In this document: piece by piece, positions 3,842-14,100 of the stretch
Layout of the letters: every line of letters starts with the position of its first letter
Position numbering within the stretch: the stretch's first letter is position 1
Assembly: GCA_900299185.1 (NCBI GenBank)
Contig: OMIV01000190.1
Location: 1-64,000, forward strand
Direction of reading: 5' to 3'
Source: Planctomycetaceae bacterium
GTDB taxonomy: Bacteria; Planctomycetota; Planctomycetia; Planctomycetales; Planctomycetaceae
DNA: 64,000 nt
Notes under the pieces: generated by a model
The model's database searches: none
The model's input: the letters and a program-made list of their open reading frames with translations, nothing else
Told to the model about the DNA's origin: nothing
Position numbers and translations under genes: made by a program

Positions 3842-5284
3842 TTACTCTTTCAGCTTGATCGAGACGAACTTCGTTTCGAGGTAAGCCTCGAGCCCCTCAT
3901 GAGCGAGTTCTCGACCGAGACCGCTTTCCTTCATGCCGCCGAAGGGACATTGCGGAGTGGCCGGGATTGGGTCGTTAATGCAGAGTATGCCGGCTTCGAG
4001 TCCCTCGCTCATTTTCCATGCGGTCGTGAGGTCGTTCGTGAAGACGTAGGCCGCGAGCCCATACGGAGTGTTGTTCGCCTGCGCGATCACGTCGTCGATG
4101 TTGTTGAAGTCGAGCAACGGCATAATCGGCGCGAAGGGCTCTTCGGTGAGGATGCGACAGTCAGACGGCAAGTCGGTCACGACCGTCGGCTCAAAGAAAT
4201 AGCCGCGATCAAACTTCGAACTGCGCTGACCGCCGGCAAGCACCTTTGCACCGCGCGACTTCGCGTCATCAATCAACCCGAGCGTCTTCGCGAGAGCCTT
4301 CTCTTCAAACATCGGCCCGATCTCGACGCCGTCATCGAGACCATTGCCGAGCTTCAGCTTGCGAGCCCTTTCGACGGCGGCTTCGGTGAACTCTTTGTGG
4401 ACATCGCGATGCACGTAGAAGCGACTGGGACAGATGCAGACTTGCCCGTTGTTTCGGAACTTGCCGATGACGGCCAAATTCGCGACGGCTTCGGGGTCAG
4501 CATCTGGGAAGACGATCAACGGAGCATGACCGCCGAGTTCCAGACTGATCCGCTTCACTTGATCCGCGCAGCCGCGCATCAGCTGCTTCCCGACTTCCGT
4601 CGAGCCCGTGAAGCTGATCTTTCTCACTGCCTTGTTCTCTAAGAACTCGGCCGCCATTTCATCTGCCGAGCCGATGACGAGATTCGCAACTCCGGGCGGA
4701 AGTCCCGCATCGACCAAGCACTTGAAGACCTCAATCAAGCTCAGCGGCGTTTGGCTCGCCGGTCGCGCGACGACGGTGCAGCCCGCTGCCAATGCCGGAG
4801 CAATCTTCCGAGCTTGCAGGGTGACAGGAAAATTCCACGGCGAGATCGAGGCAACAACTCCGACCGGGTGCTTGAGCGTCAGATGCCGCTTGCCCGGTAC
4901 TGCGGGCGGGATAATTTGCCCATAAGCCCGCTTGCCCTCTTCAGCGAACCACTCGTAAGTGTCGGCAGAGTGCAGAATCTCGGCTCGCGCTTCTGCGAGC
5001 GGCTTGCCTTGTTCGAGCGTGAGAATGCGAGCAATCGCTTCGCACCGTTCGCGCATCAGATCTGCAGTCTTCTTGAGAATGCGAGCACGCTCCCAAGACG
5101 TCTTCTTCATCCAATCGGGCATTGCCTTTTGAGCGACTTCGATAGCTCGGCGCGTCTCAGCCCGACCGGCGTAGGCGACCTCTTGAATGACCTCTTCGGT
5201 TGCGGGGTTGATGACGCCCAAAGTCCGACTGTCATCTGCGTTACACCACTGCCCGCCAATCAACATCTGCCCGATCGCTGCCAT
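3842..5284 (-). CDS. gabD: NAD(P)-dependent aldehyde dehydrogenase, succinate-semialdehyde type
   Basis: The 480-residue product has the full aldehyde dehydrogenase superfamily layout and usual length. Visible motifs are SPWNFP (about 148-153) in the cofactor site, FTGSTEVGK (225-233), LELGGHAP with catalytic base Glu249, and GQVCICPSRF with nucleophile Cys283. The closest family by motif style is NAD(P)-dependent succinate-semialdehyde dehydrogenase, which would oxidise succinate semialdehyde to succinate, but substrate cannot be fixed by eye. One oddity is Arg174 in VVARPASQTP, where most relatives have a lysine that contacts the cofactor. The gene is alone, followed by a gap on its 3' side and divergent from the GntR regulator on the other. 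Confidence 0.85.
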   Translation of the reverse strand: MAAIGQMLIGGQWCNADDSRTLGVINPATEEVIQEVAYAGRAETRRAIEVAQKAMPDWMKKTSWERARILKKTADLMRERCEAIARILTLEQGKPLAEARAEILHSADTYEWFAEEGKRAYGQIIPPAVPGKRHLTLKHPVGVVASISPWNFPVTLQARKIAPALAAGCTVVARPASQTPLSLIEVFKCLVDAGLPPGVANLVIGSADEMAAEFLENKAVRKISFTGSTEVGKQLMRGCADQVKRISLELGGHAPLIVFPDADPEAVANLAVIGKFRNNGQVCICPSRFYVHRDVHKEFTEAAVERARKLKLGNGLDDGVEIGPMFEEKALAKTLGLIDDAKSRGAKVLAGGQRSSKFDRGYFFEPTVVTDLPSDCRILTEEPFAPIMPLLDFNNIDDVIAQANNTPYGLAAYVFTNDLTTAWKMSEGLEAGILCINDPIPATPQCPFGGMKESGLGRELAHEGLEAYLETKFVSIKLKE

Positions 5285-5420
5285 AGCGCTGTCCTTAAAG
5301 GAGAAGAGTCTGTGAGCCGCGGCTGAAGGTGCCGTGATGGTGCGATTGATAGCCCGTAAGCAGCGACAGTTCGACTCGGGGCGAGATTCTTCAGAGAATC
5401 CCTCTTGCGTCTCATTTCGA

Positions 5421-5443
5421 CTGTATTAACACTGCTAGTACAG
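5421..5443. promoter_or_regulatory. Predicted YtrA-type GntR operator (autoregulatory site)
   Basis: An inverted repeat CTGTATTA-N7-TAGTACAG lies 15 bases before the regulator start codon. The two 8-base arms match except for one transition. Its shape resembles published operators of YtrA-subfamily GntR regulators, which carry inverted TATTA/TAATA half-sites. Its position suggests that the regulator represses its own gene and the downstream ABC genes. The site assignment is inference from position and symmetry. Confidence 0.6.
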
Positions 5444-5458
5444 CCGATCGAGGATGCC

Positions 5459-5845
5459 ATGCAACTTCACATCAATACCGCCAGTCGGACGCCGATCTAC
5501 AAGCAGCTCATCGAGCAAATTCGCTCGGGGATTGCTCGGGGAGATCTGCAAGCCGAGGAACAACTGCCGTCCGTGCGGCAGGTCTCGAAGGATTTGGTCA
5601 TCAATCCCAACACGGTCGCGCGGGTCTACATGGAGCTGGAGCGCGAAGGAGTGCTCAACACGCGGCCGGGGCTCGGTGTGTTCGTCGCGAACAAGAAGGT
5701 CGAACTCATGAAGCGGGCTCGCGATGACCGCGTGATCGAGATGCTCGATCGGTTCCTCACGGAAGCCGTGCATATGGGCTGCACTCGCAAGGACGTTGAG
5801 TCGTTGTTCTCAAAACGGCTCGGGCAATTTCAGTGGCCGGAGTAG
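5459..5845 (+). CDS. GntR-family regulator, YtrA subfamily
   Basis: The 128-residue product is a short GntR regulator: an N-terminal winged helix-turn-helix (about residues 10-75, with IYKQLIEQIRSGIARGDL, LPSVRQ and NPNTVARVYMELEREG) followed by only a short helical tail that serves for dimerisation. That short tail defines the YtrA subfamily, which usually controls adjacent ABC exporters. I chose the ATG at 5459 because it starts at the conserved MQLHI segment and has a GAGG site just upstream; a frame from 5405 would run through the predicted operator. The gene precedes an ABC ATPase and permeases on the same strand. It likely represses the locus until an envelope or antimicrobial signal appears. 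Confidence 0.9.
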   Translation: MQLHINTASRTPIYKQLIEQIRSGIARGDLQAEEQLPSVRQVSKDLVINPNTVARVYMELEREGVLNTRPGLGVFVANKKVELMKRARDDRVIEMLDRFLTEAVHMGCTRKDVESLFSKRLGQFQWPE

Positions 5846-5851
5846 GGCAGT

Positions 5852-5942
5852 GGGACGAATGGGACCGATGCGACGAATGAAAGGACGACGAACTTCTAGT
5901 CCGTCGCAGCGGGTGATCGATGGACTGGAAGTCCGTTGTACG
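5852..5942. repeat. Intergenic repeat block: 9-base tandem units and AGTCCGTCG palindrome
   Basis: Directly after the regulator stop are three 9-base units (GGGACGAAT, GGGACCGAT, GCGACGAAT at 5852-5878). They are followed by an inverted repeat GACGAACT-TCT-AGTCCGTC (about 5887-5905) and a second small palindrome GGACT-GGA-AGTCC (5922-5934). The AGTCCGTCG core recurs at 7657-7720 and 59195-59218. The block looks like dispersed repetitive DNA, not a terminator, since no T-run follows. Confidence 0.65.
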
Positions 5943-5993
5943 AGGCCGGGTGGAATGCAACCTACAAAGAACTCAAATCAATGAGGCAGGCTC

Positions 5994-6917
5994 ATGGCGG
6001 ATGTCATCGTCACTGAGAATCTGACGAAGTACTACGGCTCGAAGTGCGTCGTGAATCATCTGGAGCTGCGCGTGCCGGAAGGGTGCGTGTATGGCTTCTT
6101 GGGACGCAACGGCGCGGGTAAGTCGACGACTATCAAAATGCTGACCGGCATGGTGCGGCCTGATTATGGCAAGGCTCGCGTACTCGGTGAGGATGCGGTT
6201 GAACTTAGCCCGGCCATCAAGCGGCGAGTCGCCTATCTCGCGGAAGGGCATCCGCTCTACGGCTGGATGTCGATCGAGTCGGCGATGAAGTTCACCCGGG
6301 CGTTTTATCCCAGTTGGAATCAGACGCTGTTCGAGCAAGTACTCGATCACTTCCAGCTCGATCGTAAGAAGAAGATCAAGCACCTCTCGAAGGGGCAGCA
6401 GGCTCAAGTATCGCTCGCCTTAGGGATCGCACCGGATCCCGAGTTGCTCATTCTCGATGACCCGACGCTCGGACTCGACACCGTTGTGCGACGCGACTTC
6501 TTGGAGTCGCTAATTCAGATCATTCAACGCAAAGGTCGGACGATCTTCTTGAGCTCGCATGTGCTCGGCGACGTCGAGCGAGTGGCCGATCGCATCGGAG
6601 TGATGGTCGATGGTTCGCTACGAGTCGATTGCCCGACCGATGAGTTCAAGCAGGCCATTCGCCGAGTCGTGCTCACTTTCGAAGCGACTCCGCAAGCGAT
6701 CAGCGGATGCGAGGGGCTCATTGCTCTGCATGCAGAGGGGAAGCGGCTCGAACTGGTGATCTATGGGTATGGGGACGCGCACATGGAGTTGTTCGAGTCC
6801 CTGAAACCCGCTCCGGTGGATGTCGAGGTTGTGGAACTGAATCTCGAAGACGCCTTCATCGAATACACACGCGGCTCAAGACGCGCGATGCCGGTGTTCG
6901 CGGGCGAACGAGAATAG
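5994..6917 (+). CDS. ABC transporter ATP-binding protein
   Basis: The 307-residue product is a cytoplasmic ABC ATPase of the kind that pairs with ABC-2 permeases. Walker A is GRNGAGKST (37-45), the signature is LSKGQ (131-135), Walker B is LLILDD (151-156), the D-loop is GLD and the H-loop is SSHVLGDVERVADR. In Walker B the usual catalytic glutamate is replaced by Asp156, so hydrolysis may be slow or need another base. A C-terminal domain of about 90 residues follows the ATPase fold and may be regulatory. The gene lies between the YtrA regulator and a permease whose start is two bases after this stop, so they are clearly one operon. The substrate is unknown. Confidence 0.9.
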   Translation: MADVIVTENLTKYYGSKCVVNHLELRVPEGCVYGFLGRNGAGKSTTIKMLTGMVRPDYGKARVLGEDAVELSPAIKRRVAYLAEGHPLYGWMSIESAMKFTRAFYPSWNQTLFEQVLDHFQLDRKKKIKHLSKGQQAQVSLALGIAPDPELLILDDPTLGLDTVVRRDFLESLIQIIQRKGRTIFLSSHVLGDVERVADRIGVMVDGSLRVDCPTDEFKQAIRRVVLTFEATPQAISGCEGLIALHAEGKRLELVIYGYGDAHMELFESLKPAPVDVEVVELNLEDAFIEYTRGSRRAMPVFAGERE

Positions 6918-6919
6918 GT

Positions 6920-7648
6920 ATGACGGCCATGTGGCTTTGGGGGAAAATCAACATGCCGATTAGAGCTTTGGTGTGGAAAGAATTACGCAGCAGCGCGTTG
7001 ATCGTGGCGATTGCGGGGTTTGTCTTCGGCGCATGGCTCATGTGGCTGACGAATGGATTCGGACTCTGGCCGCAGCCGCCGATGTACTCGTACCAACAGA
7101 GCGAATGCGAACTCGCGATCGTCGACGGTGCGTTCTGGTATGCGGTCTTGGCTGGCTCGCTGAGTTTGTTCTTGGGGATCAATGCGGCTCGAACTGAGTC
7201 GATCGGCAAGCACTGGCAATTCGCATTGTTTCGACCAGTCAGCCGTCGAATGGTGATGGCAACAAAGATCGCTGTCGGAGTTTTGCTGAGCAGCGTGATC
7301 TCGGTAGTGCCGCTTTTCGTGTACTTCGTGTGGCTGAGGCAGCCGGGCAACTTACAGGGACCGTTCGACAGCAGCTTCTATCGCCCCACATGCAGTGTCT
7401 GGATTTGGACGCCGCTCATGTTCTTAGCAGCGTTCTGGTCAGAGCTAAATGAAGCTCGTTGGTGGGGCTCAAAGTTCTGGCCGGTGCTGGGAGTGATCGT
7501 CGCCTGCTTCTGGTTGTGGTTCATGCCGCTCGTCGAACCTCGCGAGTTCGCCTTCATGCTCGATGTGCTACCGGTCGGATGGTTCGTGCTCGGCGGATTA
7601 TTGCTTGCTGCGGTGATGGGAGTCGGGGCGGAACGAGACTTCGCATGA
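6920..7648 (+). CDS. ABC-2 type permease
   Basis: The 242-residue product has about six membrane segments and the ABC-2 permease pattern: an N-terminal WKELRSS coupling segment, a cytoplasmic RPVSRRMV loop after the second membrane pair, and hydrophobic helices up to the C-terminal GAERDFA. A frame in the same phase opens at 6707 inside the ATPase gene, but the ATG at 6920, two bases after the ATPase stop, is the natural start; ATG 6953 is also possible. The permease domain is clearly paralogous to the last 215 residues of the downstream 761-residue protein: both share RPVSRR and end in ERDFA/ERDYA. It likely forms the channel with the ATPase. Confidence 0.85.
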   Translation: MTAMWLWGKINMPIRALVWKELRSSALIVAIAGFVFGAWLMWLTNGFGLWPQPPMYSYQQSECELAIVDGAFWYAVLAGSLSLFLGINAARTESIGKHWQFALFRPVSRRMVMATKIAVGVLLSSVISVVPLFVYFVWLRQPGNLQGPFDSSFYRPTCSVWIWTPLMFLAAFWSELNEARWWGSKFWPVLGVIVACFWLWFMPLVEPREFAFMLDVLPVGWFVLGGLLLAAVMGVGAERDFA

Positions 7649-7656
7649 GGGCAGTA

Positions 7657-7720
7657 CGACGGACTTCTTGTTCGTCACGGTGTCATCGGGACGAAAGAGC
7701 GACGGTCAAGAAGTCCGTCG
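7657..7720. repeat. Long inverted repeat with perfect 14-base arms
   Basis: CGACGGACTTCTTG (7657-7670) pairs perfectly with CAAGAAGTCCGTCG (7707-7720). Inside, TTCGTC and GACGAA add a further inner stem. The transcript would fold into a long hairpin just after the permease stop, between two genes of the same operon. It shares the AAGTCCGTCG core with blocks at 5.9 and 59.2 kb, so it is best read as a dispersed palindromic repeat. No T-run follows, so termination is not supported. Confidence 0.75.
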
Positions 7721-7793
7721 CCCAAAGAGTTGAGCGTCGCATTGCGACTGAGGAAAGCGGTGAAAAGTCACCGTACTCCAACGAGGCATTCTT

Positions 7794-10079
7794 ATGACCA
7801 AACAACGATCACTCTGGAGCTCGGCTGGGCGAGCAGTATGGCTGACTTTTGGGGCGATGGCGGTAATTGCGGCATGCCTCATCGTTGGCATTACAGTTGT
7901 GGAATCTTTCGCACATGCGATTGGAGACCAACGTTTCGAGACTGAGACGCTCCGCTGGCGAACCGACGGGCAGTTGGCAATCCATTTGCGCAGCGATAGC
8001 GGCGAACATGCTCGGTCGCTCGAGGGACAGTCGCTGGAACCGGCGAAGACTTCAGCGGAGTACTTCAACTTCACGAACGAGTCGTTGTGGCTCCACCGCG
8101 ACCCGATCATGCCCACTCAACGCGTGCAGAAGGCTGACAACATCGACTCGGCAACTACTTGGTTCTTTCACGAACGAGATGGTCGCGGCATTTATGTGGC
8201 GGTGGACAGGCTGACGAAGCAAACGATCGGGTATCTCGGACCGCGCGGGTTTCAGGAGACGCTGCCCCAGGTAGATCGCCAATTCGACCTTTCGGAGACG
8301 CATAGCTCAGGACGCATTGGCTTAATGCGGCAGTGGTCGCGACGTCTGACGGGACTTGATTGGACAGGTTCCGATCTCAATTTGAATTACACCGGTGAGC
8401 TGTTGGTGCAGAACAACGGTCGGCGGCTGTACTTGGTCGATCTCAAGCAACGTGAAACACATGTCGTGCATGACGGCGAACCGATTGCTGCCGTGGCGTT
8501 GATGAAGACCGCGGGAATGGACCAACCACGTTTGGCGCTACGGTTCGCAGATCGCGTCGACGAGCGAGACACCTTTGCCCCCTACTCGATTAAGACTGTC
8601 GTCAAGCTACCGAACTCCGTGCGTGAGTGGGCGGCGTTCGAATGGATCCCCAATACCGGCGACAAGCACGATCGACACATCTACGTGAGAACGTTTCGCG
8701 GTCAGTACGAGATCGCGTGGTCCGACTCGGACGGTGTTGTGTTGCAGGAACACAAAGTCCGACTTCGCAGCAACCGGGATGATGTCGACGAGAATGGAAA
8801 TGCCGTCCAGATCCCTGGCTTCGTGGCTTGGATGATGGGCTCCGTGCAGTGTCCGTTTTTTTCCACAACGATGTATGGAGTTTTTACAGCATCGGCGGTC
8901 GCTTCTCGCGAGTTCGATCCCGAAACCGCAACACCGGCGCTCTACGGAGCCAGCGTGGCTGAAGCTCGGCAGCAAGTTTGGGCGACGGTGGCGCTGCCGC
9001 TGTTCACGACATGGCTCATCGGCGGCTTTTGGAGTTGGCTCGGAGTGCGACGGCTCAAGATGTTCGGCATGCCGACTCACGAACGCCGTTTTTGGGCCGT
9101 CTGGATCGGCGTGTTTGGCTTGCCGGGGTATCTCGCCTTGAGAGTTCATCGTCACTGGCCACTGCTCGTGAAGTGCTCGGCTTGCTTGAAGAAGGCGCCG
9201 TGTAATACGGAATGCTGCGTGCGTTGCGGGGCGAGTGGGATAGGCATCCTCCCTGTCAGCTTGGGCCAGTCGACGTGCAGTAATAATGACAGGCTGGTTG
9301 CCTATACCACAAAGGACAGACAGCGGACTTCTTTGATGATTGCCGCTCGGTGCGTGGAGCAGGCGGAGCATTGGGGATTCGAGTTTGCCGCGAGGCTAGG
9401 GCCTGCGGCGGGAGTCGGCGTGCTCGTCGTCAAAGAGCTACGAACGGTCGCGGGAGTTGTCGTGCTCGGACTGGCGGCGTTTGTGTGGTTGGTCGGCTCG
9501 AAGATGAATCTGCCGGTGCTCAATGCCTTCACGGGACACTCGGCTCGAGTGTCTCCGTTCTTGCAAAACTATCAATTGCCGACCTACGTCTGTATGAGCG
9601 TGTTGCTCGCGCTGGCACTTGGTTACTGGCAAACGATCTCCGAAGGATCGAATGGCGCGTGGCAGTTCTTGTTACATCGACCTGTAAGCCGCCGAGCAGT
9701 CGTTCTCAGCAAGTTGGTGATTGGTTTGTTGCTGGTACTGCTACTGAGCGCTTGGCCGATCGTGGTGCTGGGTTGGTGGGCGAGCAAACCGGGTTCGTTC
9801 GTCGCGCCGTTTGAGTGGTGGATGACGGAGCCGTTCTGGCGAATGTGGTGGCTGATGCCAGTCGTTTATCTCGGAGCGTTCGCCAGCGGATTGCGGCCAG
9901 CTCGTTGGACGGGGACACGATTGCTGCCCTTGATAGCTGTGGTGGGGATCCTTTTGCTCCATCAGCAGTTCTCAGTGCGGACTTGGATTTGGCAAGCTGA
10001 AGCGGGAGTTGTCGCGGTTGTCATGGCGGCGATGGCGATCGCGATTCTGACGGTGGGTCAGGAACGCGATTACGCGTGA
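7794..10079 (+). CDS. Sensor-like domain / zinc-knuckle / ABC-2 permease fusion
   Basis: The 761-residue protein has an N-terminal membrane helix (17-38), then a large domain of about 350 residues that is probably outside the cytoplasm. Two more membrane helices follow (396-416, 432-450). Next is a cysteine cluster (Cys461, 464, 470, 474, 475, 478) like a small zinc knuckle, a linker of about 60 residues, and a complete ABC-2 permease domain (545-761) paralogous to the preceding permease gene. The first 450 residues are paralogous to the next gene: both have TWFF, GYxG and GxRG blocks. The linker is encoded by a palindromic repeat (9237-9308), suggesting that two genes were joined. A GAGG site precedes the ATG at 7794. 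It probably acts with the upstream ATPase. Confidence 0.8.
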   Translation: MTKQRSLWSSAGRAVWLTFGAMAVIAACLIVGITVVESFAHAIGDQRFETETLRWRTDGQLAIHLRSDSGEHARSLEGQSLEPAKTSAEYFNFTNESLWLHRDPIMPTQRVQKADNIDSATTWFFHERDGRGIYVAVDRLTKQTIGYLGPRGFQETLPQVDRQFDLSETHSSGRIGLMRQWSRRLTGLDWTGSDLNLNYTGELLVQNNGRRLYLVDLKQRETHVVHDGEPIAAVALMKTAGMDQPRLALRFADRVDERDTFAPYSIKTVVKLPNSVREWAAFEWIPNTGDKHDRHIYVRTFRGQYEIAWSDSDGVVLQEHKVRLRSNRDDVDENGNAVQIPGFVAWMMGSVQCPFFSTTMYGVFTASAVASREFDPETATPALYGASVAEARQQVWATVALPLFTTWLIGGFWSWLGVRRLKMFGMPTHERRFWAVWIGVFGLPGYLALRVHRHWPLLVKCSACLKKAPCNTECCVRCGASGIGILPVSLGQSTCSNNDRLVAYTTKDRQRTSLMIAARCVEQAEHWGFEFAARLGPAAGVGVLVVKELRTVAGVVVLGLAAFVWLVGSKMNLPVLNAFTGHSARVSPFLQNYQLPTYVCMSVLLALALGYWQTISEGSNGAWQFLLHRPVSRRAVVLSKLVIGLLLVLLLSAWPIVVLGWWASKPGSFVAPFEWWMTEPFWRMWWLMPVVYLGAFASGLRPARWTGTRLLPLIAVVGILLLHQQFSVRTWIWQAEAGVVAVVMAAMAIAILTVGQERDYA
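9237..9308. repeat. Palindromic repeat inside the fusion gene, encoding its linker
   Basis: Arms at 9237-9258 and 9287-9308 match at 18 of 22 positions as an inverted repeat (core ATAGGCA and CCTGTCA, mirrored by TGACAGG and TGCCTAT), separated by 28 bases. The translated stretch GIGILPV and DRLVAYTTKDRQ is of a kind I remember from many planctomycete hypothetical proteins, where it comes from dispersed repeats. The reading frame stays open across it. Confidence 0.65.
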
Positions 10080-10212
10080 AGTCTTTCAATGTAGCCATCA
10101 TCACTCGCGTGAGGCGACTTCTTTGGTTCGAGCTCCGTCAGCAGTGATCTAGCTCACACAGCGAGGGGCGACATTGGCCCGTGGTGTTAGAGATCACAGT
10201 TTAGAGGCAGAC

Positions 10213-11775
10213 ATGAAACGCTCACGGTTTGGAAATTGGTTGCTGGGAGTCATGGTCGCGGGCGGCTTGGCGGTGCTTGTCATGTTGGCGGCAATGCTGT
10301 TGAGCATGTGGCTGTCTCAGAGAGAAGCAGTTGCTCAACAACGCGCGATGAAATCATGGAGTTATCAGCAGCTTGTCGCATTACAGACCGGCGAGGTCGT
10401 CGTGCAGACAACGACTCAGAATCCTCAGCCCTTAGTGGGCGAGTCGGGGCAGACTGTCACATTTACGACACCTCAAGGTGAGCCGGTGCCAGTAACGGAA
10501 GAAATGCCCGTCGCCAAAGGGCAGCATTGCGAGCTGGAGTCGCGCGACGACCAGTCGCTGATAAGGATGGTCTCAACGCTGACCGGTGATTGGCGGATTG
10601 AGCATCAGACTCCGGGCCGACTTCCGCCGGAGAGCCGCGTGACAGCGGTGAATGTCGAGACCGGCGAGACTTGGTTTTTTGTGATTCCGAATCGACTCGA
10701 TGAGCCGTGCTACTTCGCAGGCTATCGCTGGACCGGCCGACTCACGGAACCGCTGGGGTTCATTGGCGCGCGCGGTCTGATGAAGACGAAGCCGACGTGT
10801 GACGAAGGATTTCAGTGGATCGACTCTGAGTCCGGGCAGACGGGCCGCATGCTGGGGACCGGGAACTTCTACAGCGTGCATCCCATGCAGACGCTGTTTT
10901 CATGGGACGAATCAAACAATGCTCAGCATCGCTCGGTGATAGTGTGGGAGGGCGATCGACGGCGGCTGTTCGAGATCAACTTCGCTCGCTCAGGAGCCGA
11001 TGCCGTGCAGCTCGTGCGAGACTTCGGAGATGACCGACCGGTGTCATTAAAACTCCATCAAGAGCAAGCCCGGTACGGCTCGGACGGACGCTTGAATCCG
11101 ACCGAGCCGCCGCAGGGCTTCATTCGCTTCAACGATCGAGTCGAGTTTGTCGGCCCCAACTGGAAGGCAACTCACACGCTGCAACTGCCTAAGTTGCTCC
11201 GCGACAAGGCGGTCACGCTCTACGAAACCGATATGGGGCCAATTGCGATCACTTACGACGAGTCAGTCTCACGAACCGAAGGTTATGTCCTCGTTCGAGC
11301 CCACTGGCTAACAGACAACGGCGAGATCACGAAGCAGATCGAGTGGCATGACGAGCCACGCAAGCTCGCCGGTGATGTCGTGCAGTTGTCGTGGAGTCGT
11401 TCGGTGCCGCAAGCCATGACGTTGATGCCCGCGATTCCGCTGCTGTCACTCGCTGACAGAGTTCAATTAGTACGCTTCAACCCGCTGTTCGATCTATCGC
11501 TTAATGAAAAGACCAAGCACGGTGATTACTTTCTGCCATCGCTAAGAGGCTGGTGGGATCTCCTACGACGCGAGATCACAGCCGGTGATCTCGTCGGCTG
11601 GCTGATCTGCCTACTTGGTGGAGCAGCGAGCGTCGCGTTCTTCTGGAAGAGCGACCGCTCGCGCGACCTACACGGCCTCGAACTCGCCGCCTGGAGCGGA
11701 CTCATCTTCCTGCTCGGCCCCGCAGGACTCATGGGCTTCCTCACACATCGACCGTTCTCTCGCCACGAGGCGTAA
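10213..11775 (+). CDS. Membrane-anchored sensor-like paralogue without permease domain
   Basis: The 520-residue product has an N-terminal membrane helix (about 8-33), a large domain likely outside the cytoplasm, and two C-terminal membrane segments (about 460-478 and 492-512). It ends at HRPFSRHEA, the point where the paralogous 761-residue protein continues into its zinc knuckle and permease. Shared blocks with that protein include TWFF, a GY-x-LT-x-PLGFIGARG region and the paired C-terminal helices. I chose the ATG at 10213, preceded by a GAGG site, over the 13-codon-longer frame at 10174. No enzyme motif is visible. It is the last gene of the ABC locus and may modulate the transporter. Confidence 0.7.
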   Translation: MKRSRFGNWLLGVMVAGGLAVLVMLAAMLLSMWLSQREAVAQQRAMKSWSYQQLVALQTGEVVVQTTTQNPQPLVGESGQTVTFTTPQGEPVPVTEEMPVAKGQHCELESRDDQSLIRMVSTLTGDWRIEHQTPGRLPPESRVTAVNVETGETWFFVIPNRLDEPCYFAGYRWTGRLTEPLGFIGARGLMKTKPTCDEGFQWIDSESGQTGRMLGTGNFYSVHPMQTLFSWDESNNAQHRSVIVWEGDRRRLFEINFARSGADAVQLVRDFGDDRPVSLKLHQEQARYGSDGRLNPTEPPQGFIRFNDRVEFVGPNWKATHTLQLPKLLRDKAVTLYETDMGPIAITYDESVSRTEGYVLVRAHWLTDNGEITKQIEWHDEPRKLAGDVVQLSWSRSVPQAMTLMPAIPLLSLADRVQLVRFNPLFDLSLNEKTKHGDYFLPSLRGWWDLLRREITAGDLVGWLICLLGGAASVAFFWKSDRSRDLHGLELAAWSGLIFLLGPAGLMGFLTHRPFSRHEA

Positions 11776-11811
11776 TTCACGAACGGTCGAATGCTTCCGC
11801 TACTCCGCATC

Positions 11812-14100
11812 CTACGGCTTTGCCGGCGTTTCAGAGATCTCGACCAACCCAACGTCGACGTACTGACCGCCGCCCGTTTGATGGCAATGCACCGCGAGCG
11901 TGCTCTTGCCGCCGTGCAGCTTCTTGACCGCTTCGGCATCGAGCGGCACTTCCACGTAGTCCGTCGTGAAGCCCGTCGTCCGCGCGATCAAGTGGCCGTC
12001 GAAGTAGATCTCGGTGTCTTCGTCGTGATGGATGCGAACGGCATACTCGCGACCAGTTTGCGGCTTCCAATCGGCGGGCAAGTCGAGCGAACGACGCAGC
12101 CAAATATCATTACTCTTCCAGACGGTCTTCACATGACTGCCGGGAGTCGTCGGCTCGCCAAAGCCGCCGGGGCCGCTCTTCCAAGATGAGTCATCGAAGC
12201 TCGACTGGTGCCAATTCTCACCGGGCTTGTCCGTCGTGTAGCGCCATGTTTGAGCGTCCTTCTCAGACGTCGGCACGAGCGTCGTCACTTTTGGAGCGGG
12301 CAGATACAGCTTGCGAGCGGCTGCCGAGATCTTGTCGGCGTCCATCTTCACGACGCTGCGGTCATAGGTCATGAGGCCGTTGACCTCGACTTCGACGTCG
12401 GTCGTTTGTGTGTAGACCGCTGCTGCCAGGCCCTTGCCGATCATCGGTCGCAGCGCGGCGAGCTGCCCAACATACGCCTTCGTCAGGTCATCACGATTCG
12501 TGAAAGAGCGATAGCCCCAGTTGTCTTTGCCCTGCCACGTATGCCCTTCGAGCGGCAGGCCGAGCCCACCAAACTCGCCGAGCACGGTCGCTCGATCAGG
12601 CCACAAACGCGGCATGAACGGGCCGGGGTAGCGATGAATGTCGTAGACGTCGCCGACCGGAAAGTCGTTGCCGCCCGAGGCACAGTTCACGAGGCGGCTC
12701 GGGTCGTACTGCTTCGTCCATTTCGTCACTGCGACGGTATTGGCTTTCCCCCAACCTTCGTTGAACGGCACCCACATCACGATGCACGGGAAGTTCTTGA
12801 GCGAGTCGATGATCGCCTTCCACTCGCGATTGAGATTGTCGGACGACTCCTGCGAGCGAGTCATCTCACTGTTGTCGAACTTGCCGAACGGATCCCACTT
12901 CGTCTCTTTGTCGCCGCTGGGTAAGTCTTGCCACACAAGCAAGCCGAGCTTGTCGCAGTGGTGATACCAGCGCGCGGGCTCGACCTTCACATGCTTGCGA
13001 ACCATGTTGAAGCCGAGCTTCTTCGTCATCTCAAGGTCGTACTTCAGAGCCTCATCCGTCGGCGCGGTATAGAGCCCATCGGGCCAGAAGCCTTGATCGA
13101 GCGGCCCGTATTGAAAGACCGGCTTGTTGTTGAGCATCAGACGCCACAAACCTTGCTCGTCTTTCGCCATCGAGATCTTGCGCATGGCGAAGTAGCTCTT
13201 CACAGTCTCCAATGGGCTTTGTGGACTCAATTCAGCGCTGACCTCAACGTTGTAAAGCACAGGATTTTCCGGGCTCCACAATTGCGCTTCTGGAATCGAG
13301 ACTACAACGGGTTTTTGGTAGCTACCGCTCGCAGAGCCCACTGCTTTTCCATTGCGAGTCACTGTGACTCGAATCGTGGTGCGTGTCGTGAGCATCTTTG
13401 CAAAGACAGAGACCGTGCCTGCATCGACATCGGGAGTGATTGTAAGCGAGTCGATGTAGGTCATCGGCACTGGCTCCATCCAAACGGTCTGCCAAATGCC
13501 AGTTGTCGGCGTGTACCAAATGCCGTGCGGCTTGCGGACTTGCTTGCCGCGCGGCTGATAGCCGGCATCGCTCGGATCGAAGACCGAGACGACGATCTCT
13601 TGCGGGCCGTCGCCCTTGAGTGCGTCAGTGATGTCGCACGAGAACGGGTCGTAGCCGCCTGTGTGAGTTGTTACCTCTTTGCCATTGATCCAAACAGTCG
13701 TCTGCCAATCGACCGCACCGAAGTGCAAGAGGATGCGCTGGCCCGTCCATGCCGGCTTGTCGAACGTCCGCCGGTACCACAATCGGTTCTCTGGCCCGAC
13801 AAACTTCATGACGCCGGACAAAGCTGACTCAACCGGGAACGGCACAAGAATCTTGCCGTCCCACTGCGTCGGCTGAGCTTCGTCTTTAGGACGAATGGCA
13901 TACTCCCACAGACCGTTGAGGTTCTGCCATTGCTGCCTTACGAGCTGCGGTCGCGGATACTCGGGATGCGCCTTGTCGGGCGAGACATCCTTCGCCCATT
14001 TCGTCATCAGCGGCGCCTTCGTCGGCGGCCAATCTTGAGCACTGAGCGTCGAAGCCATAACCGCGACGATTAAACCACACACCGTTCGAGCGTCGAACAT
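11812..14100 (-). CDS. Exported glycoside hydrolase family 2 enzyme
   Basis: The 762-residue product has a signal peptide (about 1-21, cut near LSAQD) and the GH2 order: a sugar-binding jelly-roll (about 50-210), an immunoglobulin-like domain (about 215-310), a TIM barrel (about 310-600) and an extra C-terminal galactose-binding-like domain (about 620-760). The acid/base Glu448 lies in MWVPFNEGWG and the nucleophile Glu509 in VLGEFGG. GH2 enzymes hydrolyse beta-galactosides, glucuronides or mannosides; the specificity cannot be fixed here. It is likely periplasmic or secreted and used on polysaccharides. It is convergent with the ABC locus, with 36 bases between the stops. Confidence 0.9.
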   Translation of the reverse strand: MFDARTVCGLIVAVMASTLSAQDWPPTKAPLMTKWAKDVSPDKAHPEYPRPQLVRQQWQNLNGLWEYAIRPKDEAQPTQWDGKILVPFPVESALSGVMKFVGPENRLWYRRTFDKPAWTGQRILLHFGAVDWQTTVWINGKEVTTHTGGYDPFSCDITDALKGDGPQEIVVSVFDPSDAGYQPRGKQVRKPHGIWYTPTTGIWQTVWMEPVPMTYIDSLTITPDVDAGTVSVFAKMLTTRTTIRVTVTRNGKAVGSASGSYQKPVVVSIPEAQLWSPENPVLYNVEVSAELSPQSPLETVKSYFAMRKISMAKDEQGLWRLMLNNKPVFQYGPLDQGFWPDGLYTAPTDEALKYDLEMTKKLGFNMVRKHVKVEPARWYHHCDKLGLLVWQDLPSGDKETKWDPFGKFDNSEMTRSQESSDNLNREWKAIIDSLKNFPCIVMWVPFNEGWGKANTVAVTKWTKQYDPSRLVNCASGGNDFPVGDVYDIHRYPGPFMPRLWPDRATVLGEFGGLGLPLEGHTWQGKDNWGYRSFTNRDDLTKAYVGQLAALRPMIGKGLAAAVYTQTTDVEVEVNGLMTYDRSVVKMDADKISAAARKLYLPAPKVTTLVPTSEKDAQTWRYTTDKPGENWHQSSFDDSSWKSGPGGFGEPTTPGSHVKTVWKSNDIWLRRSLDLPADWKPQTGREYAVRIHHDEDTEIYFDGHLIARTTGFTTDYVEVPLDAEAVKKLHGGKSTLAVHCHQTGGGQYVDVGLVEISETPAKP

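Follow-up and report, generated by a model that had tools for sequence, protein, structure and literature searches.

Within a 64,000-nucleotide stretch of a Planctomycetaceae genome (positions 1 to 64,000 of contig OMIV01000190.1, hereafter the window), a gene for a 761-residue protein carries a 76-bp palindromic element in frame between a sensor-like half and an ABC-2-like permease half. We think it probable that this element is a selfish palindrome, akin to REP doublets and to Rickettsia palindromic elements (RPEs), that lies in a tolerant linker of an older gene fusion, and that such palindromes have overwritten this joint repeatedly. An earlier note on this DNA had proposed that the repeat joined the two genes. 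However, orthologous fusions in g72, another genus of the family, lack the window's element, and thus, to judge from these sequence comparisons, this copy did not itself join sensor 1 and permease 2; only a weaker form of the proposal, in which an earlier palindrome did the joining, survives as a possibility. Intragenic REPs and RPEs are known, and what is unusual here is their serial replacement at a fusion joint.

The fusion gene lies in an operon with the order GntR regulator, ABC ATPase, permease 1, 761-aa fusion and sensor 2, whose features are as follows.

5450..5845, + strand: GntR-family regulator (PF00392, 2.9e-12; start codon uncertain)
5994..6917, + strand: ABC transporter ATPase (PF00005, 2.2e-23; 77% identity to the g72 orthologues)
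6953..7648, + strand: permease 1, a separate gene (likely start MPIRAL; groups with g72 permease 1 at 97/86)
7794..10079, + strand: sensor 1-permease 2 fusion gene, 761 aa (open reading frame; full-length homologues in G132, G140 and G133)
7794..9158, + strand: sensor-like half, residues 1-455 (homology to separate sensors)
9174..9233, + strand: zinc-ribbon-like motif CSACLKKAPCNTECCVRCGA (compared with the sensors of G039, G046, G048 and G111)
9235..9310, unstranded: dispersed palindrome of 76 bp and REP-doublet-like form, translated in frame as residues 481-506 (SGIGILPVSLGQSTCSNNDRLVAYTT)
9235..9258, + strand: left arm GTGGGATAGGCATCCTCCCTGTCA (inverted-repeat search)
9287..9310, + strand: right arm TGACAGGCTGGTTGCCTATACCAC, complementary to the left arm at 20/24 positions
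9311..9398, + strand: remainder of the linker; its part from about 9339, directly before the permease, is conserved among all fused orthologues (protein alignment)
9399..10076, + strand: ABC-2-like permease half, residues 536-761 (weak, sub-cut-off Pfam ABC2_membrane matches; homologues in many genomes)
10213..11775, + strand: sensor 2, a separate gene (lacks a zinc ribbon at its C terminus; clusters with g72 sensor 2 at 95/86)

The open reading frame does join a sensor-like half to a permease half, as the earlier note read it, and the two paralogues that it took to be unfused (permease alone at 6953-7648, sensor alone at 10213-11775) are indeed separate genes. The sensor-like half proceeds from an N-terminal membrane segment through a large domain to a zinc-ribbon-like motif (CSAC...CVRC), which is the C-terminal motif of unfused sensors; in the fusion the element comes next, replacing the usual tail and stop. 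The permease half shows clear homology to permeases of many genomes, but its Pfam match (PF12679, E=1.4e-4) reaches only 21.7 bits against a cut-off of 27.2, and it is called ABC-2-like here from such weak matches together with the neighboring ABC ATPase. NCBIfam provides no family name for either the permeases or the sensors of the operon, Rfam gives zero matches over window positions 5000-12500, and a search for related loci among genome contigs found no relative. Sensor 2 lacks the C-terminal zinc ribbon typical of most unfused sensors, and the operon's zinc ribbon is kept only in the fused protein. A second inverted repeat of the GTACGACGGACTTC type, with 20-nt arms of which 18 positions pair, lies between permease 1 and the fusion gene (7657-7720), and a similar arm is present in G132 (L171).

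The inverted repeat at the joint has 24-nt arms (83% paired, 20/24) around a 28-nt spacer, making it slightly longer than first described (arms 9237-9258 and 9287-9308), and none of 1000 Markov shuffles of the region reached its score. It had been said to encode the linker. It does sit at the joint and in frame, but of the roughly 80 residues in the linker it supplies only 26 (481-506). Its arm motif occurs at this single site in the window, where none was expected. The suspicion that its translation is repeat filler is borne out by the genome as a whole (G000), where BLAST with the region gives 33 matches, both strands counted, and the arm pattern gives 53 sites versus 1 for the reversed control. 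Full-length BLAST copies are 70-81% identical and span 9234/9235-9310, and genome copies align over exactly 9235-9310, with shared boundaries.

Complete copies have the architecture GTGGGATAGGCTTCCAGCCTGTCA, spacer, TGACAGGCTGGAAGCCTATCCCAC. Half of the 12 complete doublets examined lie inside open reading frames as called by a simple codon-usage script, and half lie outside; the carrier frames include a TIR-like protein (a reading of its translation) and frames that span an entire 3-kb locus. All six left arms borne by reading frames are read in one frame, (S/R/C)GIG(I/F)(L/Q/H)PV, despite a second open frame of the arm. Copies within long reading frames, with a left arm read as xGIG(I/F)xPV, are seen at L002, L012, L014, L018 and L021 (element near 1501-1614), and in four of these five the spacer is unlike that of intergenic copies. 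At L003, L004, L015 and L027 the copies are nested within a more extended palindrome whose outer arms resemble GAGCCTGTCCGAGAAGTGGG, a longer form of the element. When the flanks of full copies were inspected by eye for the target-site duplication expected of a MITE derived from a DDE transposon, no consistent duplication was evident, and there was no empty site for comparison. The genome has two Y1 transposase (Y1_Tnp) genes, both flanked by other palindromes and with one possible degenerate arm near C305; a RAYT gene flanked by the window's family was not found in G000. One short IS200/RAYT-like transposase gene, flanked by the palindromes GCTGCGGGCGTCAGCCCGCAG and CGCGAAGCGGCGACAG (L192 near 1380-1450 and 2000-2030, in G000:C305), is a candidate source of other repeat families.

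When 170 genomes of the family were scanned, full-length homologues of the fusion were found only in genus g72 (G132, G140 and G133), and partial matches came from G137, G139 and G141. Extending the scan to a sample of 398 genomes from across the class yielded no additional fusion of the sensor-permease order. The g72 operons share the window's order, ABC, permease 1, sensor 1-permease 2 fusion, sensor 2. Fused sensors form one clade in the tree (100/99), the window's sensor 2 and permease 1 group with their g72 counterparts (95/86 and 97/86, respectively), and the fused permeases, taken by themselves, come together in 80% of bootstraps with weak branch support. These groupings suggest that both the doubled permease-sensor unit and the fusion are most likely older than the divergence of the window's lineage from g72. 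The fused proteins also have in common a segment directly before the permease (VEQAEHWGFEFAARLGPAAGVGVLVVKE in the window, VEDRGLTLLARVGLSPGHAALVLKE in G132), past the point at which separate permeases start. Within g72, dN/dS values of 0.18-0.38 indicate purifying selection on both halves.

The unfused state that the earlier note had envisaged among relatives does exist: most genomes have separate genes in the order ABC-permease-sensor, and family f2 has ABC-sensor-permease, where the sensor ends in a clear stop (..TEIFA or ..IEIFA, then TGA) followed by a short spacer with no palindrome. Fusions in the reverse order, permease then sensor, of 744-818 aa occur in G001 (L052:2737-7424, in tandem) and G021 (L060:4692-6947); these retain the sensor zinc ribbon and GTEI tail, and no palindrome was found at their joints.

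The window's element, which on the earlier view might have sat exactly at the joint in related genomes, is absent from all g72 linkers, each of which carries a different inverted repeat in the corresponding region. We had entertained the idea that these linkers are plain sequence, and dropped it when each proved to contain a palindrome.

G132 linker palindrome: CCGTACCGCGACCGTTAGGGAGCGGCC
G140 linker palindrome: GTGGGGCAGGTTTTCAACCTGCCC
G133 linker palindrome: GCGAACGGTGGGCGTCAGCCCACTGGT
G137/G139 linker palindrome: GTCGTTTAACCCGGAGCCAACGGCGACGGC (one side of the joint from each, their contigs ending nearby, with 149 identical overlapping bases)
G141 linker palindrome: GGCGAGCGGGGCGGCGTCAGCCC, split by contig ends

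Each of the four g72 linker palindromes that were searched belongs to a dispersed family in its own genome, and arms of the G141 type recur among the sampled palindromes of G132 and G140. At every g72 joint for which sequence is available, a dispersed palindrome sits where the C-terminal tail and stop of sensor 1 (..GTEIFA, stop) would be expected, although the point at which the element begins varies: in the window it follows the zinc ribbon, in G137 it follows FRV and in G140 it follows HRTW. The flanking DNA of G140 and G137/G139 is 87-92% identical, and that of G132 and G141 is 80-88% identical, whereas the linker palindromes in each pair are unrelated. The arms of the window and G140 elements match at 17/24 positions (GTGGG..AGG.TT.CA.CCTG.C), and so these two elements may share an origin. 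In G141, whose assembly is broken inside the palindrome such that the fused frame is not visible whole, the two halves lie at contig ends (L092 low end, L089 high end) with foreign sequence inside, and it looks like an insertion sequence landed within the linker palindrome.

A palindrome in the spacer between the ABC gene and permease 1 behaves differently from those at the joint. Between G140 and G137 it is almost unchanged (about 6 differences per 130 bp) although the surrounding genes are 84% identical, and therefore rapid turnover of the kind seen at the joint is not a necessary property of the operon's palindromes. This spacer palindrome (L087:6714-6797, L091:2223-2306) is GTAG-tagged and more conserved than the genes around it.

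All five linker elements that could be tested have exactly one stop-free forward frame, and it is the frame that the gene uses. In samples of 20 contigs each from G140 and G132, palindromes occur at 0.21-0.28 per kb overall, the density being about 1.2 per kb in non-coding and 0.06-0.09 per kb in coding DNA, and about a quarter of them lie within reading frames. A 160-bp stretch at the non-coding density would hold one palindrome with P=0.18, and five distinct elements at five of five g72 joints would have a probability of about 2e-4, far lower at the coding density; this figure is rough, as the lineages are related, the linker is lengthened by the element and the joint was chosen because the window has one (the window itself is uncounted). 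Five different occupants in five lineages thus exceed what even the non-coding density predicts, suggesting that mere tolerance may not suffice.

Given that a palindrome stands in place of the lost sensor tail and stop at each joint, an earlier palindrome could have done the joining. An element inserting into the 3′ end of sensor 1, in an ancestor shared by the window's lineage and g72, would have removed the tail and stop and put permease 2 in frame, with later replacement in each lineage. We regard this as possible but somewhat doubtful. The stop-bearing, palindrome-free joints of family f2 are in its favor, as is the resemblance between the window and G140 arms, by which one family may date to the ancestor. 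However, no intermediate is known, the elements begin at different places in the window, G137 and G140, and point mutation or deletion of the stop would join the genes equally well. The sequence had also made it attractive to suppose that the insertion of 76 bp was by itself enough to bypass a TGATG stop/start overlap (9334-9338), an idea that lost weight because the fused orthologues carry other elements. An extended version is a doubtful conjecture: selfish palindromes would have made the fusion by deleting the sensor tail and stop, and the site would since have been an exchangeable linker cassette and a recurrent landing site, with one palindrome family replacing another in frame. If it were true, each species would get its own linker peptide.

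The presence of palindromes at all joints, at an occupancy above expectation, is also what one would see if the hairpin itself, as mRNA or DNA, were selected for pausing between the membrane domains or for setting a product ratio, with its sequence freely exchanged. The g72 linker palindromes, as RNA, have predicted folds that outdo those of shuffled sequences by a wide margin (z -6.5 to -11.6), but the window's copy has decayed to 20/24 pairs and its predicted fold barely beats shuffles (z -1.63; 13/200 equally good), and the same families are also found in unrelated genes and spacers, so we judge a functional hairpin to be unlikely. We consider it highly improbable that the cell makes no fusion at all, with sensor 1 ending early, permease 2 starting internally (at ATG 9336 or a GTG further on) and the open frame being accidental. 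Such a reading gains some appeal from the fact that excising exactly 76 bp makes sensor 1 run to a TGA (9334-9336) that overlaps an ATG (9336-9338), the usual arrangement of coupled genes. Yet the frame is open through five different elements, always as the sole open forward frame, and the pre-permease segment is conserved across the fusions beyond the start of separate permeases.

We therefore favor the view that selfish palindromes have repeatedly overwritten the joint of an older fusion. A non-autonomous, putatively mobile palindrome of REP-doublet (REPIN-like) architecture, perhaps moved by a RAYT/IS200-like enzyme, would settle both between genes and in frame within them. One such element would have landed in, or been exchanged into, the linker of a fusion that already existed before the window and g72 separated, and that bridges the two inner members of a doubled permease-sensor unit (permease 1, sensor 1, permease 2, sensor 2). 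This same, presumably tolerant, linker would later have been taken over by different palindrome families lineage by lineage, and only frame-keeping copies would persist because both halves are under selection. No fused orthologue with an empty, palindrome-free linker was found, and so insertion into a pre-existing linker is something that we infer rather than observe directly.

Selfish palindromes read in frame have been described in Rickettsia and in genomes rich in REPs, where they may shape proteins or may simply be tolerated. Here, one orthologous protein offers a natural series, with the same fusion, the same joint and a different palindrome in each lineage, and the conserved intergenic palindrome of the same operon serves as a control for turnover at the joint. 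With both in hand, turnover, selection for frame and insertion preference become measurable, and the idea that repeats make linkers becomes testable.

Operons that combine a GntR regulator, an ABC ATPase and an ABC-2 permease are Ytr-like. The window's operon resembles them in having a small GntR regulator, an ABC ATPase and an ABC-2-like permease in a row, and differs in its doubled permease-sensor unit with a fusion across the middle.

RPEs are dispersed palindromes that lie in frame in unrelated genes and encode a recurring peptide, and nearly half of those in R. conorii are in reading frames (PMC10969869). The window's family likewise lies in frame in unrelated genes, with the recurring peptide xGIG(I/F)xPV in six reading frames. 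The likeness is one of behavior alone. The element here is about 76 bp long rather than about 150 bp, has another sequence and comes from another phylum, and here different families succeed each other at one orthologous joint.

REPINs, or REP doublets, consist of two inverted REP-like arms around a variable spacer, with a predicted hairpin, and are present in many copies, with several families per genome and some copies intragenic (PMC3116915; PMC3733652). The window's element is similarly an inverted arm pair with a variable spacer that is predicted to form one hairpin, its family has many dispersed copies (53 arm sites against 1 in the control), and several palindrome families coexist per genome here as well. 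Unlike GTAG- or CGTC-tagged REPs, the family begins with GTGGG, although GTAG-tagged families coexist in g72. REPINs are mostly extragenic and are associated with a RAYT transposase gene; here no RAYT gene flanked by the family was found in G000, and half of the complete copies examined are intragenic. A precedent is the recB gene of Xanthomonas campestris and X. oryzae, an orthologous gene in which different REPs occupy roughly the same position (PMC3733652). The same pattern of different palindromes at one orthologous site is seen here, but where the Xanthomonas case involves two species and one gene, the present one concerns a fusion-protein joint and comprises the window's element together with five further, differing elements in g72.
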